From a virus, in the IMG/VR virus record IMGVR_UViG_3300050821_023953, positions 1 through 36,549 of that record: a stretch of 36,549 nucleotides of DNA, one strand, 5' to 3'. The notes beneath the pieces are model-generated. The model saw only the letters and a list, made by a program, of their open reading frames with translations. It had not been told where the DNA came from and did no database searches. Positions 4,529-31,616 of this stretch are shown piece after piece. The translations under genes and the position numbers were made by a program. Every line of letters begins with the position of its first letter. Position 1 is the stretch's first letter.

Positions 4529-5087
4529 CTGACACCTCCGGGGAAGGGACTGAAGGGCTGACCGGACGGTAGATCGCGGTGACGTTTGTGCGATACGTGG
4601 GATCCTGGAGGTTGCCGAAACAGACGCCGTAGCGGTGCATAGCGTGGATGAACATTCGGCCGCTGTGCATGTAGAACAGACCGCAGTGGTGAGGGACTCG
4701 GACGATGTTGAAGCAAATTAGATCTCCCGGAGCGATAGCATCGAGTAGTTGCGACAGACCAAAGGTCGGAGAGTCGTAGTGCAGCTTCTGAAAACTCGGA
4801 TGCGAATCCAGCCAATCAGTCACCAGCGATCGCTGGAGATGACGGCCGCCGTCCATCGTGTAGGCCGGGAATCCGTAGTCAGCGAACAGGCCGCATTCCT
4901 GATAGATGCGCGCGGCCAGGTGGACGCAGTCCACGCCGACGCCACGCATAGCTGCGTGAGGCACGAATTTGGTGTGGACCCATGTGAGCGCGATGGCGCG
5001 GAACTTTTCCAGACGGTCGGGATCGGAAAAGAAGGGGACAGACAAAGTGGATGACAAAGTGGATGACAAAGTGTTGGGCTCGTTCAC
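4521..5087 (-). CDS. NlpC/P60-family tail peptidase
   Basis: 188 residues. Expected to cleave peptidoglycan cross-links at the tail tip during DNA entry or tail assembly. Candidate catalytic Cys54 is in GVDCVHLA, followed by a helix as in the NlpC/P60 fold; His134 is in HHCGLFY, matching the family H-x-G; the third residue may be His148 (FIHAMH). Size matches GTA gp14-type peptidases. It starts at GTG (5087) with a strong Shine-Dalgarno AGGGAGGT, and the GTG overlaps the TGA of the preceding gene. Residues 6-16 (TLSSTLSSTLS) are encoded by the in-frame GACAAAGTG triple repeat, so the first 17 residues are probably a dispensable addition. Confidence 0.88.
   Translation of the reverse strand: MNEPNTLSSTLSSTLSVPFFSDPDRLEKFRAIALTWVHTKFVPHAAMRGVGVDCVHLAARIYQECGLFADYGFPAYTMDGGRHLQRSLVTDWLDSHPSFQKLHYDSPTFGLSQLLDAIAPGDLICFNIVRVPHHCGLFYMHSGRMFIHAMHRYGVCFGNLQDPTYRTNVTAIYRPVSPSVPSPEVSDV
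5041..5073. repeat. GACAAAGTG triple repeat, copy 1
   Basis: Three GACAAAGTG units at 5041-5049, 5053-5061, 5065-5073 with GAT spacers. It lies in frame at the start of the NlpC/P60 gene and encodes TLSSTLSSTLS on the minus strand. Confidence 0.9.
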
Positions 5088-6550
5088 TTCTTACCTCCCT
5101 GGCTTGTGCTGCTGTTGATCGCCTGAAGCGCGGGGTTGCGGAGCGGCAAGAAAGGGAAGCCGAGGAAGTTCGCGTAATTGTTGAACTTGGTCTGGCAGGT
5201 AGATGCCTGACCGTCGCAACCGGGAATCAATTGCATTTGCTGACCGACTTGAGCGAACTGCAGCGGCGCATTGAGCGTGAGCGTCAGCGTGGGCGCGGCG
5301 TAAGTGCTGCCGATGATTGTCCGGACTTCCGCGGTCGCGCCGTAACCGGTTTCGAGCCAGCCCTGCGCGAAGTAGTTCAACGCTTCGAGCGTCGCGCTGG
5401 GAAAGTTAAGCGTGACATTGACGCTGGGCGGAAGGTTCGAATTGCCGAGCGCGCTGATTGTGACCGTGGTTTCGAAATATGCGCGAAGCAGTTTGCAAGT
5501 GTTCGGCTCGAACACGTAGTAGTTGCACGTCGGCTTGATTAACATCCAGGGGACTTTGCGACGGAACACGGACCAGAACGATTCGCAGCTTGCCTTTAGC
5601 TGGTCGCCGGCATCCTCGACCGTCCGGACAGTTCCGGAGAATACGAGCGTCTGTGTGTTCGTGTCCGCGAACGTGACCTGATAGATCGTGATGGTCATCG
5701 GCCGAGGGAACGGCGTCGGAAGGAATAGGCTCAGAGGATGGTTCGCGTTGTAGGCCGCGTCGATCTCCAGCGTTTCGGCTTGCGGATCGGTTCCGCGCGT
5801 GAACGTGCCGTGAGTGATTGACGACGCGTTATAGAAGACGTTGTTCGAAACGACGCTTGCGGCGAAGCTGGTGAAATACCAATCGAGCTGCATGGGAGCA
5901 GCCAGGCTGAAATGGTAAAGGTAGATCGGTGTCTGGCCGGTCTCGACGTTGGTGTATTCGGTCGGAAGCTCAAGCACCTTGAGCGTGCGCGTCTGCCAGC
6001 CTTCGCCAACGAACTTTGCCTGCTCGGTGTCGTCAGCCTGGCGAACATAATGCAAGCGCTGCACGCGCAGGTTCGCGCCGAACGGCGATAGGAACGCGAC
6101 GGCCGTATCGATGGTGATTGTCTCGGTGCCGTCGCCGTTGTTCGCGACGGCCGTGATCTTGGCGGCGACGGGCGCCTGTCCATCCGCGGTGAAGTAAAGA
6201 TAGATGTCCGGATGATCAGCCCAGGTGGCGTTGAGTTCCTCGAACGCGATTTTGAAATGCGTGGTGTCGATTGCCGCAACCGCCTGCCCGGCGTCGAACG
6301 GAGTCGGCAGCCAGAAACCAGATTGCCGGCCGTAAAGCGGGTTGAGGAAGGCGTCGAACGAAGCAATCAGCGCGGGCGTGGTCAGGTTCACGTTGATGTC
6401 GTAGCCCTGGACGGTGTTTTGCTGCGTGCTTTCGAACACTTCTGCGCCGAACCCCAGCATCACTTCGCGCATGTCGTAACTAAACTGCTTCGTGACCGGC
6501 TCGGACCAGTCAACGTCGAACTGAAATACTTGGCGGCCGAGATAGTTCAT
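5084..6550 (-). CDS. Phage BR0599/DUF2163-type tail protein (GTA gp13-like)
   Basis: 488 residues from the ATG at 6550, whose ATGA overlaps the stop of the upstream gene; the open frame extends further but its first 30 residues are out-of-frame shadow. The N-terminal half (FDVDWSEPVTKQFSY) and the C-terminal cysteine-bearing segment (CNYYVFEPNTCKLL ... PGCDGQASTCQTKFNN ... NFLGFPFLP) match the conserved BR0599/DUF2163 family, whose C-terminal GCD...TC...F.N..NF.GFP signature is diagnostic. In gene transfer agents the equivalent hub protein sits between the distal tail protein and the cell-wall peptidase, exactly as here. The Cys residues are positioned to bind metal or form disulphides. Confidence 0.85.
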   Translation of the reverse strand: MNYLGRQVFQFDVDWSEPVTKQFSYDMREVMLGFGAEVFESTQQNTVQGYDINVNLTTPALIASFDAFLNPLYGRQSGFWLPTPFDAGQAVAAIDTTHFKIAFEELNATWADHPDIYLYFTADGQAPVAAKITAVANNGDGTETITIDTAVAFLSPFGANLRVQRLHYVRQADDTEQAKFVGEGWQTRTLKVLELPTEYTNVETGQTPIYLYHFSLAAPMQLDWYFTSFAASVVSNNVFYNASSITHGTFTRGTDPQAETLEIDAAYNANHPLSLFLPTPFPRPMTITIYQVTFADTNTQTLVFSGTVRTVEDAGDQLKASCESFWSVFRRKVPWMLIKPTCNYYVFEPNTCKLLRAYFETTVTISALGNSNLPPSVNVTLNFPSATLEALNYFAQGWLETGYGATAEVRTIIGSTYAAPTLTLTLNAPLQFAQVGQQMQLIPGCDGQASTCQTKFNNYANFLGFPFLPLRNPALQAINSSTSQGGKK

Positions 6551-6975
6551 TTCCAGATTAGGACGTAGGCGTTGACGTTGTTCAGCGCGGACACATCCAG
6601 GTAATTGGCGGTTTGGGCCTGGACAGAGCAGCCCTGGCAAATCGGCTTGTAAGTCGCGTTGCCGAACGGAGTGGTGAAAGTGATGCGATAGTTCGGGCCG
6701 ATGAACGTCACGGAAGCGACGTTCGTTTGATCTCCGCCGCCGCCGATCAAAGTGGGAGCGCCGCTGCCTGTGTTGAAACCGGCTATCACCTGCGGAGCGA
6801 CTTGCTGGATGGCCGTGACGGCGTTGTTGATCAGCGTTTGGGCTGTGTTAAACGAATTGTTGAGCTGCGAGATGTAATAAAACATCGTGCCGATCAGCTC
6901 CAAGTATTGCGCCTGGTTGGGGACGTCGCCGGTCTGGAAATACGACTGCAGGATGTTTTGGGTTTGGGGGATCAT
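6547..6975 (-). CDS. Tail-region protein of unknown function
   Basis: 142 residues. Residues 1-60 are helical and Gln/Asn rich (NQAQYLELIGTMFYYISQLN); the remainder is beta-rich with PNYRITFTTPFGNATYKP and two cysteines (ICQGCS). The ATG overlaps the TGA of the upstream small gene and its own TGA overlaps the next ATG, so it is translationally coupled on both sides. The short N-terminal helix plus beta domain could be a trimeric tail-tip or fibre piece, but I recognise no family. Confidence 0.65.
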   Translation of the reverse strand: MIPQTQNILQSYFQTGDVPNQAQYLELIGTMFYYISQLNNSFNTAQTLINNAVTAIQQVAPQVIAGFNTGSGAPTLIGGGGDQTNVASVTFIGPNYRITFTTPFGNATYKPICQGCSVQAQTANYLDVSALNNVNAYVLIWK

Positions 6976-7346
6976 GGCAGCGCGGGAGCGGGGAGCGGGG
7001 AGCTTGGAGCCTGAGCGGAAGCGACGCAGAGAACGCCCGACAGACGATTGTGGCGGCGGAAACCGCCCGCGGCGTTCAGGAGGATTTCACGGCCGCATTC
7101 AGAACAGAGCCGTCTTTTGTGCGTGTCCATTTTTTGTTCCTCATTTGCGGTGGAAATAATGGACGTTTCTGCGCCCGAGGCGGGCGCGCTCCGCTCGCGA
7201 CTGGCATAAAGCCGTTGCCATAGCGCTTGATCGCGGATTCGCAGGAAGTTTTCGTGCGGGTCGTTTTGCGGGTGGGAGACGTAAACGTAGCCTTCGGGCA
7301 AGACGCGCGTGCCGGCGTTTTGGATGTCAGAGTATTCGGATTTCAT
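6972..7346 (-). CDS. Small composite protein with Cys motif; repeat-derived parts
   Basis: 124 residues. Residues 1-47 (PEGYVYVSHPQNDPHENFLRIRDQALWQRLY) look like a genuine small phage domain. Residues about 50-62 are encoded by a GC-rich palindromic repeat (GCGCCCGAGGCGGGCGCGC). An internal ATG at about 7131 (MDTHKRRLCSECG) follows GAGGAAC and opens a mini-domain with CSECGREI and a later Cys, possibly a zinc ribbon. The last residues (SSPLPAPALP) come from a second repeat of GGGAGCG units. Its stop overlaps the next start. It may be two short genes joined in frame by a repeat insertion; function unknown. Confidence 0.5.
   Translation of the reverse strand: MKSEYSDIQNAGTRVLPEGYVYVSHPQNDPHENFLRIRDQALWQRLYASRERSAPASGAETSIISTANEEQKMDTHKRRLCSECGREILLNAAGGFRRHNRLSGVLCVASAQAPSSPLPAPALP
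6981..7012. repeat. GGGAGCG-type repeat
   Basis: Units of GGGAGCGGGGAGC encode the C-terminus of the 124-residue tail-region protein. A related copy in opposite orientation lies at 31008-31035. Confidence 0.65.
7171..7190. repeat. GC palindrome repeat GCGCCCGAGGCGGGCGCGC, copy 1
   Basis: Encodes part of SAPASGAE in the 124-residue protein. Near-identical copies at 15711-15735 and 24748-24768. Confidence 0.75.
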
Positions 7347-7348
7347 GG

Positions 7349-7381
7349 GACAAAGTGATGGACAAAGTGGGAGACAAAGTG
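7349..7381. repeat. GACAAAGTG triple repeat, copy 2
   Basis: Units at 7349, 7361, 7373 with ATG and GGA spacers. It exactly fills the gap between the distal tail gene stop (7387) and the next start (7346). Confidence 0.9.
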
Positions 7382-7386
7382 TGCGT

Positions 7387-8043
7387 TCATCCTACGATGT
7401 TGGTTGTGCCGACAGTCATCCAGCCGATGCCTGCTCCGGAATGGTTGACGTTGCCGCCGAGTTGCGCGGCGTCGCGGCTGGTGAGTTCCTGGAGTGTGAG
7501 GCTGACTTCGCCGTGCCAGTTGGTAATGAGCGACACGTCCTTCACGGACAGTTTGCCAAACAGCAGCGGAAAGACATACAGACCGTTCGCGACCGGGTAA
7601 GTGCGGCTGACGGCCGCGCCGAGCGTAAGCGTCGCGCCGCCGCCCGTGACGTTCGTAAGCTGGCGCACGTCCCAATTCATCGCGTCGTCCTGCAGGAAAA
7701 TGTAATCACCAATCGCCCACGGCCAGGTTGCGTCGGCGAGGTTGACGGTGACGTTTGTCACGTCGGCCGAGATCGGCGAACCGCGGCCATGGTAAGGCGT
7801 GCAGGCGTTGCCGGATTTGAGCGCGGCGCGAATGCGATCATCGAGTTCGCTTTGTTCCTGCAGCGTGCGCGGCGCGACGGTCCAGGTGAGCGAGATGCGC
7901 GCATTCTGGCGGGTTGCGGCGCGGGCTTCGTTGCCGAGGATGCTTTCGGTGATACCGGTGGACCAGGTGCGCTGCCAGGTCGGCGGCGTCTGCCAGTCCG
8001 CGCGATGCGCGAACAGGACGGAACCGTTGACGAGATCGACCAT
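7387..8043 (-). CDS. Probable distal tail protein (GTA gp12 position)
   Basis: 218 residues. The N-terminus DLVNGSVLFAHRADWQTPPTWQRTWSTGI describes a tail protein of the type located between the tape measure and BR0599 genes, where gene transfer agents encode the distal tail (DUF2460) protein. Later parts are beta-rich (DYIFLQDDAMNWDVRQLTNV) and the C-terminus contains SLTLQELT. I do not see the standard DUF2460 N-terminus, so the family call is positional. It starts two bases after the stop of the small upstream gene and is followed by an intergenic gap filled exactly by a GACAAAGTG triple repeat. Confidence 0.6.
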   Translation of the reverse strand: MVDLVNGSVLFAHRADWQTPPTWQRTWSTGITESILGNEARAATRQNARISLTWTVAPRTLQEQSELDDRIRAALKSGNACTPYHGRGSPISADVTNVTVNLADATWPWAIGDYIFLQDDAMNWDVRQLTNVTGGGATLTLGAAVSRTYPVANGLYVFPLLFGKLSVKDVSLITNWHGEVSLTLQELTSRDAAQLGGNVNHSGAGIGWMTVGTTNIVG

Positions 8044-8045
8044 AA

Positions 8046-8291
8046 TCAGGATTTCACATTTGAGATTTGAGATTTGAAATCGGGAGGGGAATGGCGCTCG
8101 ATGGCGGCGCGGGACCAGAAGAGGACCTCTTCGAGCTTGCGAATGGCCAGACGCTTTTCGGCCGACTCGGGCAGGATATGATCAAGCTTGTCGGCCAGTT
8201 CCTGGCATTGCTTGCGCGCGTCTTCTGTGGCGCGGTTTGTCTCCGGCAACGGCGGACGGTAAATGAAACGGGCTAAAAGCTCGGTTCTCAT
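8046..8291 (-). CDS. Acb2/Tad1 hairpin-type small protein, candidate cyclic-nucleotide sponge
   Basis: 81 residues. Residues about 20-67 form a helical hairpin: RKQCQELADKLDHILPES, then AEKRLAIRKLEEVLFW with SRAAIERH. This P-x-S-x-E-K-x-L-A-x-x-K-L-E-E-x-x-x-W-x-x-A-A-I-x-R pattern is what I know from the Acb2/Tad1 hairpin (former DUF7681) family. Characterised Acb2 proteins bind cyclic nucleotide signals and block CBASS; some also bind Thoeris signals. The last 12 residues (from FKSQ to the end) are encoded by an in-frame interspersed repeat, so the ancestral protein probably ended near RHSPP. It lies inside the tail operon between tape measure and distal tail genes, an unusual place for an anti-defence gene. 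Activity is inferred from the motif only. Confidence 0.6.
   Translation of the reverse strand: MRTELLARFIYRPPLPETNRATEDARKQCQELADKLDHILPESAEKRLAIRKLEEVLFWSRAAIERHSPPDFKSQISNVKS
8049..8081. repeat. TTTGAGA-type interspersed repeat
   Basis: Tandem ATTTGAGATTTGAGATTTG units encode the last residues of the Acb2-like protein (KSQISNVKS). Confidence 0.75.
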
Positions 8292-8293
8292 TC

Positions 8294-8326
8294 GACAAAG
8301 TGCAGGACAAAGTGGAAGACAAAGTG
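8294..8326. repeat. GACAAAGTG triple repeat, copy 3
   Basis: Units at 8294, 8306, 8318 with CAG and GAA spacers. It fills the gap between the tape measure stop and the Acb2-like start. Confidence 0.9.
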
Positions 8327-8331
8327 TGGGA

Positions 8332-10992
8332 TCATGTTGGCACTCCGATCTTGTAGCGGTTTTTGCGGGCGATCCTGACGACGTGGGCTTCGCCTTCGGC
8401 GCTGGACAGGAATTGCTTGATCTCGGAATGGTCGCGAAGCATGGCGATGGACACTTGATGGCCTTCGACGTTTATGCCGGTCGAGGTAGCGCCTGAAGGA
8501 CGAACGCCGTAGCCGGCCGCCGCGCCGGCCGCGCTGGGAGCGTTGGGGAAACGGCGAGCGTTCAAGTCGCGCATGAAGTTCGCGCCGTAGTGCGCGAGCG
8601 CTTCGTTGCGCATGACGAACTCGGGACCGGCTTCGCCCATCATTGTCAGCGTCGGACCGGTGATCAAACCGCCTTGGGCCGCGAATGCCAGACCCTGCCC
8701 TTCCGCCAGCGCCGCGGCCATCAGCGCCGGCGCTTGTGCGGACGCTTCGCCTTCGGTCGCGATGGTTGCGAGCGTGGCAGGCGGGGCCCAGATCGCTGAC
8801 TCTTCGGAAGCCAGCGCGGCGTTCGCGGCCGCTGATGCCTGTCCGGCCGTCTGGCCGGCTACGAGCATTAGCAACTGTTGCGCGACCCAAGTTGTTCCGA
8901 TCTTCACGATTGCCTGGACGACGGAACTAATGATCGAACCGGCAATGTTTCGTAGAGCCTGAGACCACGTCTCGGTTTTGTTGATCACGCCGCTCAGGTT
9001 CGTGCTGACGGAATTGAAGGCGTTCGAAAAGATGGATTGGAACTGGTTTCCAATCTCGTTGAGCGTGTTGAACTGGTTGCGGAGGTTGATCAGCGCCGTG
9101 CTGAACTGTCCGCTCAACGTGAGGCTGGCTTGCGCGCTTTCGAGCTTCTGCGCCAACGCGACCTGCTGGCCCTGGAGCGCGATGTATTCTTTCTGCGCGT
9201 TGAGCCGGGCTTCGTCGTTCAATCTCGGATCGGTCGAACGCTGGCGCAACACGTCCAATTGCTTTTGATCCAGGGCAAGTTCCTGCTGCATCAAAGGAAT
9301 GAGCAGTTTCGTTTTCTCGACGTCGGTCAGGTCGGGATTGCCCGTGATCGCGGACTGTTGGTTCTTGAGCTTGGCCAGGGCGATGTTGTTCGCTTCGTCG
9401 GCTTCCTTGCTGGTCACTTCCAAACGCTTGGCGGCGTAAATCTGGCTGACCTTGAGCTTTTCCTCTTCGCGCTTTTGCTGGTCGGGGATTTCCTCATCCA
9501 GCTTTTTCTTGAGCTTGGCTTCCTCTTCGTTGAGCAGCGCGACTTTGCTCTCGGTGGCTTCGGCGAACGCTTTGTTGACTTCCTCGATGAGCTGGCGCGC
9601 GGCGTCGCTGAGGCCGGCTGGCTTGTTGCCGGCCGGCGATTCACCAGGGACTGAAGGAACGCCAGCGACTGAAGAGCCGGAGCCGAGATTGAAAATCTTC
9701 GCAAGCGCGCCAGCGACTGATTGATCATTCGAGAACAACTGCTTGGCGGCGTCGGAAGCGCGCTGGAATGCGCTGGTGAAGAAATCGGCAATGTGGGCGG
9801 CCGCGGAATTGGAATCGGTCGCCAGGCTCGTGATGTCCTTTTTCAGGCCGGCGACCATTTCCTTTGTGTGCGACCAGGCGTCCCCGACGTGGCCGGTCGC
9901 GGCTTCGGCCATGATTTGGGCGACCTTGCTTTGAGCGGTCGCAAGATCGATGAGCGCGCGGATCGCGTTGACGACTTTGCGTTCGAAGTCGTCCATTAGG
10001 TTGCCGACCAGGTTCAGGCCGTCAGCCAGAATCCCAAACCCCAATTCGGAAACGGTTCCCAAGTCTTCGATTTGCTGCTTAACGATCAGCACGGCCGCCG
10101 CCATGAACTGGAACACGCCGACCAGCGCAGTGCCGATGACCAGATGGCCTTGCTCGCTATTCGCTACGTTCTTGAACCAATCGACCAGATCGCGGAGCGC
10201 CGGCAGCAACGCCGCGGCGACTTCGTTCCAGAGCTGCTCGACGGACTGCCGCAGCTTGACCAGTTCCATGTCGAACTGGCGCGCGTTCTCTGCGGCTTCC
10301 TGCGTGACGCCGTTCGATTCACCCAGCGCGCCCGAGCCCTGGCGTAGCACTTCGAGAATTTCGCGGCCTTGAGGTCCGCGCATGCCGACCAGGTCGCGGA
10401 CCATCGCCGCGCCTCGTTGCGGGTCCATTTCCTTGAGCTGGTCCATCACGGCGCGTAGGACACTCTCGGTGTCCTTTAACGCGCCGTTGGACTGAAAGAT
10501 GCCGATGCCCCAATCGCGAAACACTTTGGCCGCGTCGCCGCCGCGCCGCGCCGCTTCGCTGATGCGGACGTTCAGCAGGTAAAGCGATTGCTCCATCGCT
10601 TCCAACGGCACACGGTTTTGTTCGCCGAGTTCCTTGAGCGCGTTCAGCGTGCGCAACGAGATCCCGATTGCTTCGGCCGCGCGGCCCATTTCGTCGGCGC
10701 GATTGATGGCTTCGTTTACGCTCTCGACGTATTGGAGGACCATCTCCTTGAGGGTTTCCCAGGCTTTCTCAACCGTGAACAACGCGGCGACAGTTGCGCC
10801 CAGGCCAGTGACAAATTCCTCGGCTTGCGTCGCGTCCACGAGCCAGCCGAAAATTCCGCCTTCCTCTTTCTGTTCGTCGGATTTGGCTTTGGTCTCGTCG
10901 ATCTTGCCGTTGACCTTGTCAAAGAAGTCCTGGACTTTGGACATTGCGTCCTGCGTCTCGGCATCGAACGTGATTGTGATTCCGTCGCCCAT
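8332..10992 (-). CDS. Tail tape measure protein
   Basis: 886 residues from the ATG at 10992 (MGDGITITFDAE); the longer open frame starts in a GACAAAGTG repeat and is rejected. Long helical and coiled-coil stretches dominate, including a charged region at roughly 500-600. Hydrophobic segments occur near residue 300 (ALVGVFQFMAAAVLIV) and near 710 (SIISSVVQAIVKIGTTWV). The C-terminus has the tape-measure signature GGLITGPTLTMMGEAGPEFV. Length sets tail length and suggests a tail of roughly 130 nm by the usual 0.15 nm per residue rule. It follows the chaperone genes and precedes the distal tail gene, as in siphophages. Confidence 0.9.
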   Translation of the reverse strand: MGDGITITFDAETQDAMSKVQDFFDKVNGKIDETKAKSDEQKEEGGIFGWLVDATQAEEFVTGLGATVAALFTVEKAWETLKEMVLQYVESVNEAINRADEMGRAAEAIGISLRTLNALKELGEQNRVPLEAMEQSLYLLNVRISEAARRGGDAAKVFRDWGIGIFQSNGALKDTESVLRAVMDQLKEMDPQRGAAMVRDLVGMRGPQGREILEVLRQGSGALGESNGVTQEAAENARQFDMELVKLRQSVEQLWNEVAAALLPALRDLVDWFKNVANSEQGHLVIGTALVGVFQFMAAAVLIVKQQIEDLGTVSELGFGILADGLNLVGNLMDDFERKVVNAIRALIDLATAQSKVAQIMAEAATGHVGDAWSHTKEMVAGLKKDITSLATDSNSAAAHIADFFTSAFQRASDAAKQLFSNDQSVAGALAKIFNLGSGSSVAGVPSVPGESPAGNKPAGLSDAARQLIEEVNKAFAEATESKVALLNEEEAKLKKKLDEEIPDQQKREEEKLKVSQIYAAKRLEVTSKEADEANNIALAKLKNQQSAITGNPDLTDVEKTKLLIPLMQQELALDQKQLDVLRQRSTDPRLNDEARLNAQKEYIALQGQQVALAQKLESAQASLTLSGQFSTALINLRNQFNTLNEIGNQFQSIFSNAFNSVSTNLSGVINKTETWSQALRNIAGSIISSVVQAIVKIGTTWVAQQLLMLVAGQTAGQASAAANAALASEESAIWAPPATLATIATEGEASAQAPALMAAALAEGQGLAFAAQGGLITGPTLTMMGEAGPEFVMRNEALAHYGANFMRDLNARRFPNAPSAAGAAAGYGVRPSGATSTGINVEGHQVSIAMLRDHSEIKQFLSSAEGEAHVVRIARKNRYKIGVPT

Positions 10993-10997
10993 ATCAG

Positions 10998-11030
10998 GAC
11001 AAAGTGGAAGACAAAGTGGAAGACAAAGTG
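10998..11030. repeat. GACAAAGTG triple repeat, copy 4
   Basis: Units at 10998, 11010, 11022 with GAA spacers. It lies between the chaperone second-frame stop (11036) and the tape measure ATG (10992). Confidence 0.9.
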
Positions 11031-11035: not shown

Positions 11036-11143
11036 TTACATCTGGGGTTGACCGCGCGGCGGGCGGCCGTCGCCATACATGGCTTTCAGGCGCTCGGTGG
11101 CGGCGTGGGCGAACAGGTCGAATTGTCGAAGAGTGTAACGCAT
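11036..11143 (-). CDS. Second-frame product of the tail chaperone pair (gpGT-like extension)
   Basis: From the ATG at 11143, which shares its A with the upstream TAA (TAATG), the frame gives 35 residues beginning MRYTLRQFDLFAHAATERLK. Good coding character continues upstream of this ATG in the same frame to about 11215 (FADTAAAIDFLLSQGHSLDD), almost every codon ending in C, while the annotated upstream gene has poor third positions there. So this is either the C-terminal extension reached by a -1 frameshift, as in lambda gpG/gpGT, or a coupled small gene with a lost start. It sits directly before the tape measure gene, where that arrangement is expected. Confidence 0.6.
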   Translation of the reverse strand: MRYTLRQFDLFAHAATERLKAMYGDGRPPRGQPQM

Positions 11144-13290: not shown

Positions 13291-13323
13291 GACAAAGTGC
13301 AGGACAAAGTGGGAGACAAAGTG
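13291..13323. repeat. GACAAAGTG triple repeat, copy 5
   Basis: Units at 13291, 13303, 13315 with CAG and GGA spacers, between the tail terminator stop and the A/C leader of the first major tail gene. Confidence 0.9.
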
Positions 13324-13327: not shown

Positions 13328-13870
13328 TCAAATAATGGGCTGCTGACCGAGATCGACGATTTGGTTGCCGCCGCTTAGTTCGAGGTCGAGGTTGTAGAAC
13401 ACGCGGCCTTGTAGTTCATCGCGGACTTTTTGCTGCATCAGGAACTGCTCGCCGTTGGTGGGTTGGATGAAAACGCCTGGCTGACCGGGAAGCACCCCAC
13501 ACACGGCATTGAGAATGGCGTCCTTCAACGGCATTGCGCCCACTGTTTGGGTGACCGTGGGCGTGCCGAGCAGGGCGTAAGTGCGATTGCCGACGTTGAC
13601 GTCGCCGATGATCAGCGTGATGTGATCGATCTTTCGCGTTCGGAGTTCGCGTCCGGCGCGGGTGTTTTCGAATCGTTCGCGATTGTGGACGATGACGCAA
13701 ACGCGCCGGGCCATTTTGAACACTTCCTGCAGCGCCTTGACGGGGTCCATCATGTCGAAGAAATCGACCTTGCCGAACGCGGGCGCGTTGTTGACCTGGA
13801 CAGTAAGCAAGAGCGCCTGAAGCGCCTGCAGGCACGCCGCCGTGTTGTGGAATCCGTAGAGGTTTGCCAT
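13328..13870 (-). CDS. Probable tail terminator / neck protein (Mu gp37 position)
   Basis: 180 residues. Located between the gp36-like connector and the major tail proteins, where tail completion or terminator proteins are found. It contains a mixed alpha/beta core: FKMARRVCVIVHNRERFE and IDHITLIIGDVNVGN, ending in ELQGRVFYNLDLELSGG. No specific family is recognised. It starts one base after the stop of the gp36-like gene (TGATATG), implying coupled translation. The product presumably caps the tail tube and joins it to the head. Confidence 0.6.
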   Translation of the reverse strand: MANLYGFHNTAACLQALQALLLTVQVNNAPAFGKVDFFDMMDPVKALQEVFKMARRVCVIVHNRERFENTRAGRELRTRKIDHITLIIGDVNVGNRTYALLGTPTVTQTVGAMPLKDAILNAVCGVLPGQPGVFIQPTNGEQFLMQQKVRDELQGRVFYNLDLELSGGNQIVDLGQQPII

Positions 13871-13871: not shown

Positions 13872-14507
13872 TCAATCGTCGTCGTCGTCGCCGAAGCGAG
13901 GACCGCGGGTGAAGCGGACGTGACGCGTGCCGCCGTATGCGCCCTTCGCGGGCGAGAGCTGAGGATCGGGGATCGTCTTCTCGATCAGGTCCGGGAACTT
14001 GCCGTCGCGGATCGCGGTTAGTTCGGCGATGGCATCCTTGTATTGGTCAACGATGTTGCTGGCCCGCGGCCCCATCTGGCCGTAAAGGTCCCAAAGCACG
14101 ATCGGGCGAACGAGACGCTTGAAGCGCGAATCGGACGTGTAGTTGATGAACAGCGCGGTCGGATTCGCGATTGCGCCATTGACAACCACGGTGATTGAAC
14201 CGGCAGCGGCATTCAGCGTGTAATCCGCTGGAGTGTTGAAGACCTGGCCGGAACCTGATTGGACGGAAACGGACGAGAGGTCCTGGCGTTGAGCGAAATA
14301 GGTTTGGCCCTGGACCGATGCCGGCGTGAGCGGTTCCAATTGGATCACTTCGCTGATTTGGTAGCGCAGCGTGTAATCGTTCACCTTCGCGACGGCCGCG
14401 CGGATCGCGACGGCGATGGGATCAGCGTTCTGCAAATTGGCCAGGCGCGACGTAATGTCCGCAATGTCCTGATCGCTGATGTTTAGATCGTCGTCGGTGA
14501 AGGTCAT
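13872..14507 (-). CDS. Head completion / connector protein, Mu gp36 (DUF1320)-like
   Basis: 211 residues from the ATG at 14507 (MTFTDDDLNISDQD); the upstream in-frame part lies over a repeat. The N-terminus (ADITSRLANLQNADPIAVAIRAA) and the segment LVRPIVLWDLYGQ ... YKDAIAELTAIRDGKFPDL fit the DUF1320 pattern of a helical connector ending in Y-x-D-A-I-x-x-L-x-x-I-x-x-GK. Residues about 66-124 are a beta insertion shared with the first major tail protein. The tail end is acidic (GDDDDD). The ATG overlaps the TGA of the cold-shock gene. Gene order after the major capsid gene matches Mu. Confidence 0.7.
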   Translation of the reverse strand: MTFTDDDLNISDQDIADITSRLANLQNADPIAVAIRAAVAKVNDYTLRYQISEVIQLEPLTPASVQGQTYFAQRQDLSSVSVQSGSGQVFNTPADYTLNAAAGSITVVVNGAIANPTALFINYTSDSRFKRLVRPIVLWDLYGQMGPRASNIVDQYKDAIAELTAIRDGKFPDLIEKTIPDPQLSPAKGAYGGTRHVRFTRGPRFGDDDDD

Positions 14508-14782
14508 TCCAGTGCGGAGTTCGGAGTGCGGAGTGCAGAATTCCGAGACGGGCAACGGGTATTAACGCCGGGCTTGTCCGCGCCGACGCGCGCGACGCGT
14601 TGGGCGCAAAGGCCGCGTTCGCCGTGCGTGACGTCGAAGCTGACGCGTTCGCCCTGCTGAAGCGATCGGCGGCCGCGGCCGGGAAGCTCGGAGTAATGGA
14701 CGAACACGTCCTTGTCGCCAGTGTCGGGCGTGATGAACCCGTAACCTTTCTTATCGTCGAACCATTTAACTTTGCCGGTCAT
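14504..14782 (-). CDS. Cold-shock domain protein
   Basis: 92 residues from the ATG at 14782 (MTGKVKWFDDKKGYGFI). RNP1 is KGYGFI (residues 12-17) and RNP2 is VFVHY (27-31), with the usual length of about 65 residues for a single OB-fold nucleic-acid chaperone. It binds single-stranded RNA or DNA. The final 25 residues contain NSALRTPNSALE, read from a repeat, and this extension makes the gene end in an ATGA overlap with the next start. It is unusual to find a cold-shock gene between capsid and tail genes; it may assist late mRNA translation. Confidence 0.9.
   Translation of the reverse strand: MTGKVKWFDDKKGYGFITPDTGDKDVFVHYSELPGRGRRSLQQGERVSFDVTHGERGLCAQRVARVGADKPGVNTRCPSRNSALRTPNSALE
14509..14550. 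repeat. TGCGGAGTTCGGAG-type repeat
   Basis: Units of GTGCGGAGT encode the C-terminus of the cold-shock protein (NSALRTPNSAL) and end at the gp36-like start. Confidence 0.75.
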
Positions 14783-14790
14783 CGCGGGAA

Positions 14791-14818
14791 TGGGGTGTTG
14801 GAGTATTGGAGTGTTGGG
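14791..14818. repeat. TGGAGTATTGGAGTG-type repeat, copy 1
   Basis: Fills the gap upstream of the cold-shock start. Copies at 15071-15112 and 26188-26226. Confidence 0.8.
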
Positions 14819-14873
14819 CTTGCCCGGCGCGGCCATCGGTGTGCCGCGCCAGGCTGTGACCCGAAGCGACCTA

Positions 14874-15065
14874 CTACGCTCCGGAAGTTGGTTCTTTTGG
14901 TTCTTCCTTCTTGCCGGTGGGCTTCGAAGGCGCGGACTCGCGATGTTCAAAGGCGTGCGTGCCGTTGATCAGCAGCTTGCCGTGATGGTCCTGGACTTCG
15001 TGGACTTCGTCCTTCTTGAGGATCTTCCCGTTGAAGATCACATCCTTTGCGATTTTGATTTTCAT
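14874..15065 (-). CDS. Small head-region protein of unknown function
   Basis: 63 residues from MKIKIAKDVIFNGKILKKDE. The pattern KIKIAKDVIFNGKILKKDEV resembles small SH3-like or beta-barrel phage proteins found near capsid genes, but I cannot assign a family. The C-terminus is Lys/Glu/Pro rich (KPTGKKEEPKEP), likely disordered. It is flanked on both sides by repeats of TGGAGT-type units, which occupy the upstream gap and part of the downstream gap. It lies in the Mu gp35 neighbourhood. Confidence 0.6.
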   Translation of the reverse strand: MKIKIAKDVIFNGKILKKDEVHEVQDHHGKLLINGTHAFEHRESAPSKPTGKKEEPKEPTSGA

Positions 15066-15112: not shown

Positions 15113-15883
15113 CTGGTTGGAGTGAGTTTCGACCAGATAGAAGTTGGTGACGTTACCCGAACAGGCGTTGGTCGCCAGAACGGGATAGATTTCCCGGTCG
15201 CCTTCGAGCAGCGTCCAGGGGAAGTTGGTTTTGACTGTGATGTAGTTCGTGCCGTTGAGGCTGATCGACCACGACAGCGGGAAGTTTTGCGACGCGCCCG
15301 ATGCCAGCGCGGCGGTGTTGCCGGTCGTGAAATTGGTATTCGCGCCGGCGCTGTTCGTGTATTGCAGGCCCGTGTTCCATGCGGCCGTGGCGAAGTAGAT
15401 CGTATAAGTGTTGGTTGTGGTCGCTGTCGAACCGCAACCGGACCAATACCAGGTGTCGCCGAATTTCTGGTTGATCGTGAAGTGCTGAACGATCTGGTTC
15501 GACGCGGTGTTGAAGTTCGTGCCAGCGCCGGCCGCCAGGACAATGCCGGTGTAGTTGGAGACGACTGCCGCGAAGTTCGGCTGGCCGGTTTGGTATGGCT
15601 GCGCTGCGCAGTCCAAGGTCCAAAGTCCAAGGTCCAAAGCCGCTAACGCACCGAAGGCGAAAGCCAAAATACGGCCGCGACGGTGCCTGCGTGTGCAATG
15701 GCGATCGCTGTGTCGCCCGAGACGGGCGCGCGCCGCAGGCGGATGGAAGAACGACGCCAGGGTTTGTTTGCGCTTGCGCGCGCGGAGGAATGCCATTGCC
15801 CAAACGCTAAAGAGCGCAAGGACGACGGTGATGAAGATCAGCGCCACGAAGAGCGCGAACGAATTTGCCAAAAGGAAGTTCAT
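15110..15883 (-). CDS. Composite ORF: membrane segment, repeat-derived linker, Thr/Asn-rich beta domain
   Basis: 257 residues. Residues 8-33 form a strong transmembrane helix (ALFVALIFITVVLALFSVW) followed by KRK. Residues about 48-58 come from a GC-rich palindromic repeat and about 82-91 from a TCCAAGG-type repeat (LDLGLWTLD). Residues 92-257 are a Thr/Asn-rich, probably beta domain (FTINQKFGDTWYWSGC). The two ends look like parts of different proteins joined in frame through repeats. The C-terminal part sits right after the major capsid gene, so it may be a capsid accessory protein. An A/C-rich leader precedes the ATG. Confidence 0.5.
   Translation of the reverse strand: MNFLLANSFALFVALIFITVVLALFSVWAMAFLRARKRKQTLASFFHPPAARARLGRHSDRHCTRRHRRGRILAFAFGALAALDLGLWTLDCAAQPYQTGQPNFAAVVSNYTGIVLAAGAGTNFNTASNQIVQHFTINQKFGDTWYWSGCGSTATTTNTYTIYFATAAWNTGLQYTNSAGANTNFTTGNTAALASGASQNFPLSWSISLNGTNYITVKTNFPWTLLEGDREIYPVLATNACSGNVTNFYLVETHSNQ
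15611..15639. repeat. GTCCAAGGTCCAAA-type repeat, copy 1
   Basis: Four tandem GTCCAA(G/A) units in frame in the composite 257-residue ORF. A related copy is at 33814-33848. Confidence 0.8.
15711..15735. repeat. GC palindrome repeat, copy 2
   Basis: TGTCGCCCGAGACGGGCGCG inside the composite 257-residue ORF. Confidence 0.75.
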
Positions 15884-19192: not shown

Positions 19193-21159
19193 CTCGCGCC
19201 TCCGCGTCTCATGTATGCGCCGACCGCTCCATTGATGGCCGCGGCGCCCATTGCTTTCTCTAAAGCCTGAGCGAGATGCGTCCGATCCAGTTTGTTGAAC
19301 AGTTCGGGAAAATGTTTCTGCGCGCGTTCGAGCGTCGCGATGAACTGGCGGTCGGAGAGATCGCCGTTTTTTGCAGCGGCGATTAGTTCGCGGAAGTATG
19401 GCTTCACGCCGGAGAGCCAGCGCGCCTGAACGCCGGTCAGGTTTTCCATCACGTTGTTTGTGAGCTTGTCCATTGCCGCGGCCGCGGCGGCAGTGGACGT
19501 GAACCGGCCGGACGCGCTGTCGCTCTCGGGATTCGGAACCGTGGGCTTGGGTTCGCTCGGCGGTTTGTCATCGGGCGTGAGCGCCGCGGCCGGCCCGATA
19601 AAGACGGGTTCGCCAGGGGAAGGCACGGGAATGTCGAGCTGCTCGTAAAGATGCTGCTCGGGAACTGGCAAACCCATGCCAACCACGATTTGATATTTCT
19701 GCGCGACGGCGACCTGGTCTTTCGTTTCCTTGGTGGACGGCACGGCAATGGGACATTCGTCGTCGTTGCCGAAGTTCATCCGGCAGCAAGCCGGCAGGAG
19801 TTGATCGTTGAGGACGTCGGCCGTGCGCTGGCCAACCGACTGGACGCGTTCGTTCTCGCCTTCCTTGTGGATCTTGCCGAGCGCCTGGCTGCCGCGCTGG
19901 CCCTGCGAGGTCGTGAGCGTCTGGCCCAGGATGATGATGTCAACGATCTCGTCGCAGGAATCGAGCAACACTTTTTGCGGGTTCTCACGAGCGTTGCCTT
20001 CGCCCTTCTCGAAATTGATTTTCGTTCCGTCCGGGAACACGCCGTAGCCGGCGCTGCCCATTCGACGCATCATGTCGTCGATCAAATCGAGCAAACCCTG
20101 TCGCGCCGGATCGTAAGTAGCCCAGCGCAATGGCGAGCCGAAGATTTGCGCGAAATTGATGAACCATTCCCAGGCGAAGTTTTGCGCGGCCCAATAGAAC
20201 GCCAGGATTCGAAGCATCGCGCCGCTGAGCGGATGCCCGGACTTCTGTTTGAAAATCGAGATGATGAATTTGTTCAGCGGGAACTCGGTCCACATTCCGG
20301 ACTGTTCGGAGTAGTCGGCATTCGAGAACGCGACCTCTTGCGCGAAGAGCATCAACTCGTCTTGCTGCATCTGCGTCGCGCCATAGCCGTAACCGGGATA
20401 GCCGTAGTAACGCGGATGCACCCAGCGCGTCGAACGCGGCGTCCAAAGCTGGATCGGGGTGATCGTGCGCGAATCGGTCGCGGTATTCTGTTTCGGGTTG
20501 CTGCCCGATTTCGATTTCGGGCTGAGATCGAGTTGCAGCGTGCGCAACTCCCAATTGATTTCGAGCACGCTGATTCCCTTGCCGACTGCGTCCATCACAT
20601 CCCGGAGCGTGTTGTCGAAATTATTTTCGTTCTTCTTGACGTCCGGCTTCATTGTCCAGATGAACGCATCAAGTATTCGGCAGCGGCGCTCGGCTTCAGG
20701 ACTCGGCGTTTGTCCGCGCGGGGCGAAGGGTTGCAGGTTCCAATCGAGACCGACCACGCCGTCTTTGAGCTTGTTGAGGTTGGTCGAGAGACGCGGCCAG
20801 GTCTGTTCCATCAGGTCCATTGCCAGCCACGACGCGACCAGGTTGCCGGCCATCATGCCGCGGAAGATGTTTTCCAGGATTCGCGGCGTGTAATAGTGGA
20901 CGTAGGACGCCATCCACCGGTCGCGAGCCGAAGGGAGGATGATGGTCCGAACGGCCTGTTCTTGAGCAGGCCCACTTTGTCCCACACTTTGTCCTGCACT
21001 TTGTCGATTCCCGTTTCCGGATCGGGACGACAAAGTGGGTGACAAAGTGGGTGACAAAGTGTTTTGGGGAGCCGCGGCCTGGACGCGGCCGGGCTGCCAA
21101 TGCTCCGCGCCGATCCGCGGGGCGCGCCAGGATGGGATGACGGTGCTACGCAAGGGCAC
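19189..21159 (-). CDS. Portal protein (DUF935, Mu gp29-like)
   Basis: 656 residues by the GTG at 21159; the start is uncertain because GGGAGG abuts the GTG and the first 70 residues are repeat-rich. Residues about 33-62 are encoded by an inverted pair of GACAAAGTG triple repeats. The conserved DUF935 portion begins near RDRWMASYVHYYTPR: KDGVVGLDWNLQPF, KGISVLEINWE, FPLNKFIISIFKQKSGHPL, FAWEWFINFAQIFGSPLRW, IIILGQTLTTSQGQRGSQALGK. Forms the head vertex channel for DNA. No MuF gene follows it; gpG comes next. Confidence 0.85.
   Translation of the reverse strand: MPLRSTVIPSWRAPRIGAEHWQPGRVQAAAPQNTLSPTLSPTLSSRSGNGNRQSAGQSVGQSGPAQEQAVRTIILPSARDRWMASYVHYYTPRILENIFRGMMAGNLVASWLAMDLMEQTWPRLSTNLNKLKDGVVGLDWNLQPFAPRGQTPSPEAERRCRILDAFIWTMKPDVKKNENNFDNTLRDVMDAVGKGISVLEINWELRTLQLDLSPKSKSGSNPKQNTATDSRTITPIQLWTPRSTRWVHPRYYGYPGYGYGATQMQQDELMLFAQEVAFSNADYSEQSGMWTEFPLNKFIISIFKQKSGHPLSGAMLRILAFYWAAQNFAWEWFINFAQIFGSPLRWATYDPARQGLLDLIDDMMRRMGSAGYGVFPDGTKINFEKGEGNARENPQKVLLDSCDEIVDIIILGQTLTTSQGQRGSQALGKIHKEGENERVQSVGQRTADVLNDQLLPACCRMNFGNDDECPIAVPSTKETKDQVAVAQKYQIVVGMGLPVPEQHLYEQLDIPVPSPGEPVFIGPAAALTPDDKPPSEPKPTVPNPESDSASGRFTSTAAAAAAMDKLTNNVMENLTGVQARWLSGVKPYFRELIAAAKNGDLSDRQFIATLERAQKHFPELFNKLDRTHLAQALEKAMGAAAINGAVGAYMRRGGAR
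20973..21061. repeat. Inverted pair of GACAAAGTG triple repeats, copies 6 and 7
   Basis: CACTTTGTC units at 20973, 20985, 20997 face GACAAAGTG units at 21029, 21041, 21053, with a 23-bp spacer holding its own short palindrome (ATTCCCG/CGGGA). The arms could form a 33-bp stem. It is read in frame inside the portal N-terminus. Confidence 0.9.
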
Positions 21160-21361: not shown

Positions 21362-21467
21362 AACCACAGAGGCACAGAGACACAGAGATGGAAAGGAACA
21401 TCGACGTCGGGGCCCAAGACCGACACTCCGCAGTCTTTTCTCTGTGCCTCTGTGGCTCTGTGGTGAA
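21362..21467. repeat. Inverted repeat element (CACAGAGGCACAGAGA arms)
   Basis: Arm AACCACAGAGGCACAGAGAC (21362-21388) and its complement TTCTCTGTGCCTCTGTGGCT (21438-21467) flank a 49-bp core. It lies between the terminase stop (21472) and portal start, in the only gene-free stretch of 300 bp in the packaging region. The rest (21160-21361) shows nothing I can assign. This type of element is common in several bacterial genomes. Confidence 0.8.
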
Positions 21468-26179: not shown

Positions 26180-26187
26180 AAGGAAAT

Positions 26188-26226: not shown

Positions 26227-26227
26227 G

Positions 26228-26981: not shown

Positions 26982-26984
26982 TCA
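26931..26984. repeat. AAATCMGAA-type repeat
   Basis: Tandem units such as CAGAAATCAGAAATCCGAAG end exactly at the stop of the HTH gene at 26982. Confidence 0.8.
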
Positions 26985-29581: not shown

Positions 29582-29952
29582 ACGTGATGAGACCAGTGCA
29601 GTGGAGAGACGTATTCAACTTCGCGCTCGGCGAGTTTTCGAGCGATGACGCTCCAGTTTATTGTTAGCGGTTTATCCGGTGTGCCATAGAAGGGACTGGA
29701 GCGACGGAAGGGACAAAAGTTTGCGGGCAGTTGGCTCAAGTCGGCAGGCCGGCTGATTACGTGAAAATGTTTGCAGAATCCGCACCCGCCAATTTTTACA
29801 ATCTCGTAGCCTTCACCAACCCATTTGCGCGCCGCGGCTTCCGTTTGGAATGACGGAAGGTTAGTCTTCAGACAAATGGGCGGACAGCCCTTGAACCGCG
29901 GGCGCGGCTCGAAGACGTCGGACCAGACTTGGGCGGTTTCGCTCATTATCAT
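29578..29952 (-). CDS. Cys/His-containing protein of unknown function
   Basis: 124 residues from the ATG at 29952, which overlaps the upstream TGA. It has an internal GCGFCKHFHV motif (about residue 55), paired with CPPIC near residue 22 and CPF near residue 78, suggesting metal binding. The segment FRRSSPF near residue 80 is encoded by GGGAC-type repeat units. No family recognised. Confidence 0.5.
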   Translation of the reverse strand: MIMSETAQVWSDVFEPRPRFKGCPPICLKTNLPSFQTEAAARKWVGEGYEIVKIGGCGFCKHFHVISRPADLSQLPANFCPFRRSSPFYGTPDKPLTINWSVIARKLAEREVEYVSPLHWSHHV

Positions 29953-30149
29953 TCGATTTGCTTGGGGTTCGGGTTGCCCATGACATTCCCGGAGTGGTAT
30001 GGGCAATAGCATTTTCGCCCTTGTCTCACCCAGCCTTCCTTCAAGGTTATGTTGATTTCGCGCGAGGCTGTCTCGATGCTTACGGATAGGTCCTTAATTG
30101 TGCGACACTCCGGCGCGTCGCATCTGAATTGGATGGAGATAAGGATCAT
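29949..30149 (-). CDS. Small zinc-ribbon-like protein
   Basis: 66 residues with two Cys pairs, CDAPEC (10-15) and CYCPYH near residue 47, fitting a small zinc ribbon. Between them is a helical or strand region ending in WVRQGRKC. Common type in phage early regions, often nucleic-acid binding; no specific role. Ends in ATGA overlap. Confidence 0.6.
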   Translation of the reverse strand: MILISIQFRCDAPECRTIKDLSVSIETASREINITLKEGWVRQGRKCYCPYHSGNVMGNPNPKQIE

Positions 30150-30161
30150 AGGTTTTGGTGT

Positions 30162-30539
30162 TTATGCGGCTTCCGCCCAGCGTTCGCCGGGATGCGTGCG
30201 GAGCCACTCGGCGCGGAATTCTTCGGCGCGGCGTTTGGTGTCGTCGGACATGGCGATCAACCGATTGTAGTTGTGATGGGCTTCGTCTTTGGGGATGGCG
30301 CGGGTCAGTCGGTAGCCGCGCGCGCCGCCCGCGATGATGCCGCCGCTGGCCGACGCCAGGTCGCGGATCAGGCGGTCGGAGAATTGCGCCATGCCGATCA
30401 GGTATTTCAACCGCTCCGCGATCTCGCCGGCCGTGGTCCAGTCCGTGCAGCCGTCCAGGAAGCCGATCAGCGTGTCGATGCGCGGGTCCTCGCATTCGAC
30501 GCGGGAGAAGACCAACTCGGGTTGGAAGGCGGCGGTCAT
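30162..30539 (-). CDS. Winged-helix protein of unknown function
   Basis: 125 residues. The central part WTTAGEIAERLKYLIGMAQFSDRLIRDLASASGGIIAGG with GYRLT is a winged helix with the wing loop typical of phage regulators or replication accessory proteins. The C-terminal helix contains TKRRAEEFRAEW. It starts at a TAATG junction with a possible 55-codon ORF upstream. Likely early regulator. Confidence 0.6.
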   Translation of the reverse strand: MTAAFQPELVFSRVECEDPRIDTLIGFLDGCTDWTTAGEIAERLKYLIGMAQFSDRLIRDLASASGGIIAGGARGYRLTRAIPKDEAHHNYNRLIAMSDDTKRRAEEFRAEWLRTHPGERWAEAA

Positions 30540-30706
30540 TATTGGAATGGAATCCTCCGTGCAGCATCGCTTCCCGACGTGACTTCATCAGCAAATCCGC
30601 CGGCACGTTGGCAAGACGCGCGCGCGAGACTTCTTTGACCTAGCCTCGGTCTGTGCTGACTACCGATTAGGGTTGCCCCTTCTGCTCGGAGGAAATTTAA
30701 GATCAT
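30539..30706 (-). CDS. Possible small coupled ORF (55 codons)
   Basis: Begins with ATGA overlap at 30706 and ends with TAATG overlap at 30539, so both ends show the coupling seen for real genes here. But the codon use is unlike its neighbours (few C/G third positions) and no motif is visible. Another frame has weak coding character near its end. Alternatively this is a 160-bp non-coding gap. Confidence 0.3.
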   Translation of the reverse strand: MILNFLRAEGATLIGSQHRPRLGQRSLARASCQRAGGFADEVTSGSDAARRIPFQ

Positions 30707-30978
30707 GCGTGGATGCCCATCGCTCTTAGGGCGCGACGGATTTTGAACCATGCCCGTTTCTCGGTGGACTCGGCCGCCTGACGCGTGCATCCCATCAATT
30801 CGGCGATTTCGGAAAAGGAGAGTATTGCGATGCTATCCATCGAATGCGGAGTGTGGTCTCGTCGGAGCTTACGGCTGTATGCGCACTGATACTTTTTTAC
30901 CTTTGCGCTGTTTCGCGCCTGGTAACGTTTGACGGCCGCGAGTTGGGCTGGAGATGTTTTCACTTTCAAAACGGGCAT
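30703..30978 (-). CDS. Sigma-70 region 4-like HTH protein
   Basis: 91 residues. A basic N-terminus (AVKRYQARNSAKVKKYQ) precedes a sigma-4-type helix-turn-helix: ILSFSEIAELMGCTRQAAES followed by TEKRAWFKIRRAL. It resembles the HTH in the upstream 78-residue protein (LSEIGEIFGMTKQNAYT). Such proteins could act like Mor/C-type activators of middle or late transcription in Mu. Overlaps the preceding gene by 13 bp. Confidence 0.65.
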   Translation of the reverse strand: MPVLKVKTSPAQLAAVKRYQARNSAKVKKYQCAYSRKLRRDHTPHSMDSIAILSFSEIAELMGCTRQAAESTEKRAWFKIRRALRAMGIHA

Positions 30979-31616
30979 TCGATTCCTGCGGTTTCGCGTT
31001 GGCGCCGCGGCTCCCGGCTCCCTGCTCCCCGCTTCTTGAGCGTGTAAGTCAGGTTGCGCAGTTGGGACAGCGTGAGATCGGCGGGGTCGGTCACTTTGTA
31101 TTTGTCACGGAGCAGGGCCGACAAAGTGGGAGACAAAGTGGATGACAAAGTGCGGAGGAAGGCCAGATGCCGGCGACGTTCGCCGGGATGGTCCGGGAGC
31201 TTTTCGTCGCACTCGATGCCGAGGCGTTTGGCTTCGGCGATTCGGCGGCTGACGGTGTCGAACTTTTCGTAAGCCAGGCGGTCATGGACGGCGCGGAGGT
31301 CCTCGGGATTGATCAGGAGCGCGAAGGCGTTCAGGACGCGGTCGAGGTCCTCGTTGTCGAACTGCGTGAGAGACTTTAGCGTTCCGAGCGCGAACAAGTA
31401 GCAGCCCTTCCGCAGCCGGTCCGCGGCCGGGAAGCGGAGCAGCGACGGCATGTCCGCGTAAGCCCAGACGCGTTCGTGCCACTGCGAGCGGTCCGGGCCT
31501 ACCGCGCCCGGCACGAGCAACCCGCCTTCCATCCGCCAGTTGTTCACGCCGCACACACGGCCCCAGCCGTGCTCGTTATTCCAATGCAGGGAGATTTGGG
31601 GTTGGGTTAGGCTCAT
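30966..31616 (-). CDS. Protein of unknown function with two repeat-derived segments
   Basis: 216 residues from the ATG at 31616 (MSLTQPQISLHWNNEHG). Residues 1-150 appear genuine, with LRKGCYLFALGTLKSLTQFDNEDLDRV. Residues about 156-166 (LSSTLSPTLSA) come from an in-frame GACAAAGTG triple repeat, then ALLRDKYKVTDPADLTLSQLRNLTY resumes, and the C-terminus (GAGSREP) comes from another repeat. The insertion keeps the frame because 33 bp is a multiple of 3. Function unknown. Confidence 0.55.
   Translation of the reverse strand: MSLTQPQISLHWNNEHGWGRVCGVNNWRMEGGLLVPGAVGPDRSQWHERVWAYADMPSLLRFPAADRLRKGCYLFALGTLKSLTQFDNEDLDRVLNAFALLINPEDLRAVHDRLAYEKFDTVSRRIAEAKRLGIECDEKLPDHPGERRRHLAFLRTLSSTLSPTLSALLRDKYKVTDPADLTLSQLRNLTYTLKKRGAGSREPRRQRETAGIECPF
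31008..31035. repeat. GGGAGCG-type repeat, reverse orientation
   Basis: GGCTCCCGGCTCCCTGCTCC encodes GAGSREP at the end of the 216-residue protein. Confidence 0.65.
31120..31152. repeat. GACAAAGTG triple repeat, copy 8
   Basis: Units at 31120, 31132, 31144 with GGA and GAT spacers, in frame inside the 216-residue unknown protein. Confidence 0.9.

Follow-up and report, generated by a model that had tools for sequence, protein, structure and literature searches.

Eight three-unit arrays in a Mu-like phage record

The virus record IMGVR_UViG_3300050821_023953 of IMG/VR, whose 36,549 bases were analysed as one stretch (here called the window), has its main genes on the minus strand and is, by its predicted MuB-like, Gam-like, GemA-like (weak), terminase, portal, capsid, major tail, tape-measure and baseplate-type proteins, a Mu-like phage. 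Spread among these genes are eight exact arrays of 33 bp, each made of three 9-bp GACAAAGTG units at a pitch of 12 bp and two 3-bp spacers, just as an original prediction made from the sequence alone had described them. We suggest that the arrays are copies of a small dispersed element which the phage has in common with its likely host lineage. All 24 GACAAAGTG units found on both strands of the window lie inside the arrays, where shuffling predicts 0.30 units in total. A lenient search (up to 6 mismatches in 27, or a near-exact dimer) returned the same eight arrays and no further ones in the window, and the same search on the reversed window sequence found none.

Four of the arrays occupy gaps between a stop codon and the next start. 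The array at 7349-7381 (+; spacers ATG/GGA) lies in the 40-nt gap from the TGA at 7387-7389 to the next ATG at 7344-7346, and that at 8294-8326 (+; CAG/GAA) in the 40-nt gap from the TGA of the tape-measure gene at 8332-8334 to the next ATG at 8289-8291. The array at 10998-11030 (+; GAA/GAA) is found in the 43-nt gap between an upstream TAA at 11036-11038 and the tape-measure ATG at 10990-10992, and the array at 13291-13323 (+; CAG/GGA) in the 69-nt gap that separates the major-tail-protein ATG from the TGA of the gene at 13328-13870 (-). It had been claimed that all four gaps are filled almost exactly; this holds for the first three, while in the fourth the array takes up 33 of the 69 nt.

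The remaining four arrays are in frame within coding sequence, as had been proposed. The first, at 5041-5073 (+; GAT/GAT), encodes TLSSTLSSTLS at the N-terminus of a tail protein (4521-5087, -) with a weak NlpC/P60 match under the curated cut-off. Two arrays form the only inverted pair, the other six being single as expected, and both lie in the N-terminal linker of the portal protein; the distal arm at 20973-21005 (-; CAG/TGG) reads QSAGQSVGQS and the proximal arm at 21029-21061 (+; GGT/GGT) reads TLSPTLSPTLS, with 23 bp between the arms. The last array, at 31120-31152 (+; GGA/GAT), encodes TLSSTLSPTLS inside the GemA-like protein (30966-31631, -), which has a weak Pfam match (E 0.043). Read in the sense of the genes, seven arrays show CACTTTGTC and one shows GACAAAGTG.

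The units do not vary in the phage (0 of 216 bases), while 22 of the 48 spacer bases differ from the consensus of their position. The variability of the spacers was thus rightly predicted, though with five types where the 16 spacers fall into seven: GAT, GGA, GAA and CAG three times each, GGT twice, and ATG and TGG once, GGT and TGG being the additions. Invariant units would be seen if the units are read by something, or equally if the arrays were copied from sources that already differed in their spacers, and the two are indistinguishable here.

Arrays in a likely host lineage and their placement

A scan for the three-unit pattern in one genome per species gave 33 stretches, of which 30 were in a single metagenome-assembled genome (MAG), Verrucomicrobia bacterium isolate Amazon FNV 2010 0 4 (7.7 Mb), in agreement with the link to Verrucomicrobiota that had been foreseen. 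This MAG holds 134 GACAAAGTG dimers, with none in the reversed control and none in its 96 relatives (97 genomes searched, the MAG included). We take its lineage as the likely host lineage on the basis of this shared sequence, and do not claim the exact host, because the spacers of the MAG differ (AAA and GAG dominate in the sampled arrays and both are absent from the phage) and a search of the MAG gave no relative of the phage terminase. The phage, with 8 arrays in 36.5 kb, has about 19 times the array density of the MAG, where we estimate 89 in 7.7 Mb.

Outside this lineage, Sphingobacterium and Caldilineaceae have one three-unit array each, with a single spacer throughout. A dimer scan of viral contigs gave eight stretches, none with three exact units in register, one of them (L120) having a degenerate third unit, GACAAAGTT. 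Two viral contigs (L009 and L010) from the three-unit scan with free gaps were rejected, as their matches span 27 and 29 bp and lack the 12-bp pitch. The matches in the Loclat genome were rejected as solo arrays, because they belong to a longer dispersed repeat (77 + 147 bases shared with one of its copies); this repeat contains GACAAAGTG/GACGAAGTG units and is present in that genome in six copies or more (L131-L136).

For the MAG we sampled 78 distinct arrays, which account for 117 of the 134 dimers and were taken from stretches picked for their array content. Duplicates were removed by a script rule on identical flanks (43 dropped), and genes were called by a purpose-written dicodon script, in which starts are less sure than stops. 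When two mismatches were allowed in further units, 56 arrays had three units, ten had two, ten had four, and one each had five and six, so three is the mode in the likely host and not a rule. The original prediction had held the count to be always three, and had named arrays of other lengths in relatives as evidence against itself; the count stands for all eight phage arrays, and the range of 2-6 in the MAG speaks in part against it. The unit most often degenerate in the MAG is the one following the exact pair (GACGAAGTG, GACAAAGTT), in a search that favoured exact pairs. Within 294 kb of MAG stretches, 10 of 80 exact units lay outside arrays.

The placement of the MAG arrays shows a clear polarity. 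Sixty of the 78 lie outside called genes (at least 80 codons) and 18 inside. Sense arrays, which present CACTTTGTC, fall within 40 nt after a stop codon 17 times against 5.5 expected from random placement in the same intergenic space, and antisense arrays twice against the same 5.5. Of the sense arrays, 30 have a stop within 400 nt, and all of these are at most 106 nt from it; among the 30 antisense arrays two overlap a gene end and 28 are found at 51-349 nt. The 29 close pairs (up to 300 nt apart) comprise 23 in hairpin order, 1 in the reverse order and 5 on the same strand, and 21 of the 23 hairpin-order pairs are in intergenic space. In the MAG the CACTTTGTC strand often comes directly after the stop and its reverse complement some 11-274 nt further on; such a partner within 300 nt is present for 37 of the 78 arrays and for 41 there is none. 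The four junction arrays of the phage begin 4-5 nt past the stop codon in the same sense, and the layout seen in the MAG applies to the phage arrays only in part.

The same four phage arrays precede the next start by 2, 2, 5 and 32 nt, which might suggest an element acting on translation initiation, like the TAACTGA repeats of marine Beggiatoaceae. The available part of the report on those repeats describes lineage-specific sets of 2-6 direct repeats with a preferred gene orientation, occurring also in distant taxa (PMC4679880). They mostly end just upstream of starts and consist of contiguous heptamers, some sets being split by a related heptamer, whereas the arrays studied here have 3-bp spacers and in the MAG follow stops. 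Only 3 MAG arrays, both orientations counted, come within 40 nt of a start where 10.4 would be expected (starts being less sure than stops), which disfavours this explanation, and we regard it as very improbable.

Reading frames were also assigned to MAG arrays within genes, some of them in short and weakly supported open reading frames. The frame giving DKVx was used in 16 of 20 cases, and those giving QSER and TLS in two each.

Differences in whole blocks, and other families with the same layout

The window is syntenic with a prophage in the genome G117: DNA matches between the two have 68-75% identity, the GemA homologue there has 60% identity, and the 37-kb prophage stretch contains no GACAAAGTG. 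At the major-tail-protein junction (array 13291) the gap is 69 nt in the window vs 19 nt in G117, and at the tape-measure junction (array 10998) it is 43 nt vs 3 nt; at both the gene ends align on either side. The G117 contig stops short of the junctions at 5041, 7349 and 8294, and the comparison covers the others.

Insertions of the same kind are found in proteins of the MAG. Its MnmE, at 466 codons vs 456 in the closest relative, bears an in-frame array insert, GQSERQSERQS; in a GlcF-like protein the array insert is DKVSDKVEDKVKDKVKDKVK. Neither motif is present in the nine relatives aligned for each protein, and three of the aligned relatives (L081, L089 and L093) have different insertions at roughly these positions. 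Together with the short G117 junctions, these inserts support the view that arrays may be gained or lost as blocks.

The blocks also bear on a simpler explanation, namely that the arrays have arisen by ordinary microsatellite slippage, or as a coding repeat (DKVx), without any dispersal. The MAG is rich in short tandem repeats and most of the in-gene arrays share the DKVx frame, as such an origin would predict. It is hard to reconcile with the presence of one 9-mer triple at eight positions within 36 kb, with spacers that vary, a count that is usually three, sites in non-coding sequence and the short G117 junctions, and we find it barely credible; slippage alone, or chance, is refuted by the repeated 9-mer triple, its spacing and those junctions. 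The earlier argument that random slippage is not the cause is borne out by the block difference and by the MnmE and GlcF-like inserts.

The GACAAAGTG family is one of many tandem families in the MAG stretches, and what follows rests on the same stretches picked for their arrays. Among the 30 largest families listed, period 7 is commonest. Counts near three units were found for the 12-bp GACAAAGTG, the 10-bp AACACGAATG and the 8-bp ACACAGAG families, and the other 8-bp families and the heptamers have higher counts. Several families place one strand close to stop codons and the complement further on, most clearly GGTGTTT, for which a single order accounts for 12 of 13 close pairs; no clear polarity was seen for GGACTTT, CGGATTT and CAGTGGT. 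Inverted pairs of the AACACCA family span about 80-190 bp and contain heptamer variants (L064 12255, L062 8019, L043 4520 and others). Three further MAG proteins have apparent in-frame inserts of other repeat families (L034 4411-5997, L069 6872-8218 and L039 3768-5252); by eye these are putatively FolC-like, alcohol-dehydrogenase-like and QueA-like.

Other families are present in the phage as well. Directly past the terminase stop codon, at 21365-21463, there is a CACAGAG-type inverted pair of three 8-bp units, which belongs to another family and repeats the three-unit hairpin layout. At 33815-33846 and 15610-15641 the phage has heptamer arrays (CTTTGGA / GTCCAAG), whose family is common in the MAG too, and the former, (CTTTGGA)4.6, is encoded in the N-terminus of the Mu Gam-like protein (33311-33850, -). 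In the more distant prophages of the genomes G066 and G126 no GACAAAGTG was found in the stretches read. Each of these prophages has four copies of another array, made of five 7-bp units (35 bp), and all eight copies have one orientation and are at or near gene ends among those placeable. The copies are at 2029, 3765, 5490 and 7207 in L112 and at 1913, 6182, 8567 and 9836 in L113+L114 (reverse complement), are preceded by GGAA or GGGA, and in 6 of 8 cases are near ACATCGA ACATCCA ACATCGA ACTCYGA ACATCGA. The core pattern matches 22 times in the G066 genome and 16 times in G126, prophage copies included and some matches overlapping.

These layouts raise the possibility of a cis-acting RNA element at 3' ends, in which the post-stop sense strand, alone or with its complement, would affect termination, RNA stability or, in the phage, translation coupling. 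The post-stop bias and polarity in the MAG and the single order of the inverted pairs agree with this, as do the several other families with the same layout and the uniform orientation of the 35-bp arrays. Furthermore, both inverted pairs that were folded are strong, the portal pair of the window at -57.8 kcal/mol (z -7.0) and the MAG pair L042 at -62.3 (z -11.2). The explanation is weakened by the four coding arrays among the eight of the phage, by the 18 MAG arrays within called genes and by the single frame shared by most in-gene cases. The four phage junction arrays fold no better than their shuffles (z 0.6 to 1.8) and the GemA array is close to chance expectation (z -0.6); the folding covered every phage array except 5041. 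No T-tract follows the hairpins, as the 46 ends of the 23 pairs have a mean of 1.85 T per 10 nt (largest 6) vs a background of 2.13, and an intrinsic (Rho-independent) terminator was rejected on this ground. No Rfam match at the gathering threshold was found in the window. All considered, we see an RNA element as unlikely, though worth serious attention.

A proposed dispersed element common to phage and likely host lineage

Several known systems of small repeats resemble the arrays. Rickettsia palindromic elements are longer palindromes found as in-frame inserts in protein genes; the likeness is that small repeats are tolerated within such genes, and the difference is the greater length of the palindromes and the lack of a triple-unit arm. 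A classical transposon or miniature inverted-repeat transposable element was rejected, as target-site duplications are hardly above chance.

REP/REPIN sequences are described, in the parts of the literature available, as short dispersed intergenic repeats occurring as singlets and as hairpin-capable inverted pairs, with copies in genes too (PMC3116915, PMC3733652). The arrays share all of this, including inverted doublets with hairpin potential, though under half of them are paired; they differ in that the arm here is three spaced direct repeats and a REP is one palindrome. Within 8 nt of an array, the tag GTAG was found at 0 of 78 MAG arrays and 0 of 8 window arrays, CTAC at 1 and 0, CGTC at 1 and 0, and GACG at 0 and 0. 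None of five Y1_Tnp matches in the MAG (four of them over the family cut-off) is flanked by arrays in stretches of 6-10 kb, other transposase families and RNA-processing factors not having been searched for; the one array in them is some 1.4 kb away from its match, and one match has just 356 bases of contig upstream of it. As GTAG or CGTC tags, complements included, are present at no more than 1 of 78 arrays each and arrays were not seen to flank a RAYT gene, membership of the REP/REPIN family was rejected; by analogy, the element may still work like a REPIN. The original prediction of a mobile or copied element or a binding site gains from the block difference and from the invariant units with varied spacers, and of the linked host transposase that it had suggested as a check, no Y1_Tnp candidate was found beside an array in the stretches covered.

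It may instead be that the arrays are sites of DNA recognition in the host, either a tag similar to an uptake sequence or a site for a partition or nucleoid protein, with the three-site array as the bound unit and phages gaining from the use of the host dialect. The invariant 9-mers with varied spacers, the usual count of three at 12-bp pitch and the high density in the phage are in line with this. The DNA uptake sequences and uptake signal sequences (DUS/USS) of Neisseriaceae and Pasteurellaceae are likewise lineage-specific short motifs, and the available parts of the reports on them describe inverted pairs downstream of genes and a preference for one orientation within reading frames (PMC1852404, PMC2346458). 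They are reported in hundreds to thousands of copies (PMC2346458), whereas the MAG has about 90 arrays, or 134 dimers, in 7.7 Mb, usually as triplets at 12-bp pitch, a copy number below that of DUS/USS. In addition, several other families share the layout in the same genome, and there is no known binding protein; we consider a recognition site of this kind doubtful. As far as full-text searches of a PMC library showed, the Beggiatoaceae repeats, REPINs, GTAG/CGTC repeats (PMC3733652) and uptake-sequence hairpins are the nearest systems in print, and in the parts covered none of these accounts describes spaced triple arrays. Within the same scope the repeat strings gave no match, and the papers listed on Verrucomicrobia repeats contained no account of the arrays.

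We favour the explanation that the arrays are a small dispersed element, specific to the lineage and common to host and phage, that forms an arm of post-stop inverted repeats, and give this explanation a probability of roughly 0.5; the sharing by both and the block difference between related phages are well supported. Each array would be one copy of a 33-bp element with three 9-bp recognition units at 12-bp pitch. The element would belong to the repeat complement of the Verrucomicrobia host lineage, and the Mu-like phage would have acquired it by living there. In the host it would often serve as an inverted-repeat arm, about half of the sampled arrays being paired, and copies within genes would persist where an in-frame insert is tolerated, as in protein linkers and termini. 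We infer that a trans-acting factor, probably one acting on hairpins or single strands, recognises the 9-mers and copies the arms as wholes; such copying would hold the units identical while the spacers drift, and the remaining placement would follow from selection against damage.

Several observations weigh against this dispersed element. An inverted partner is missing for 6 of the 8 phage arrays, and the sole inverted pair of the phage sits inside the portal gene and not past a stop. Relative to G117, the GemA and portal sites have a net +5 and +18 codons in the window plus other local changes, and no clean insert; loss of arrays in G117 is also possible, but less simple than gain. Direct repeats of at least 5 nt in the flanks were found for 9 of 78 arrays vs 6.0 in shuffled pairings, and outside the 33 bp nothing is conserved except an A or C at position -1 (69 of 78 MAG arrays). 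Finally, the spacers differ between copies, and the arrays are therefore not simple recent copies of one master, and no enzyme was identified.

The phage encodes a cold-shock-domain protein at 14504-14950 (Pfam CSD, E 1.9e-26), which may bind single-stranded nucleic acid. It was considered as a candidate reader of the repeats, with evidence neither for nor against. The MuB-like transposition ATPase (34726-35817, -) marks the record as a Mu-like phage. In IMG/VR, where near records were possibly left out by the search, phage relatives were distant or partial only: seven loci for the tape measure at 26-36%, one for the terminase at 59%, one for the portal at 28%, and none for MuB.

Further, we speculate that the arrays might represent a new class of interspersed repeat whose arms are spaced multi-site arrays, three 9-mers at 12-bp pitch here and five 7-mers in other phages, with a dedicated protein that recognises the units and both places and keeps the arrays; the phages of a given host lineage would then carry the dialect of that lineage at high density for some advantage, such as in identity, regulation or DNA transfer. 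We hold this to be rather unlikely.

The arrays present a lineage-specific short element that occurs both in a transposable phage and in its likely host lineage, and a related phage is at hand for comparison. Through them an orphan viral record gains a candidate host lineage. In one uncultured Verrucomicrobia genome several repeat families follow one rule, with one strand directly after the stop and the complement further on. If a protein does read the triple unit, it would be part of a new kind of DNA- or RNA-reading system.

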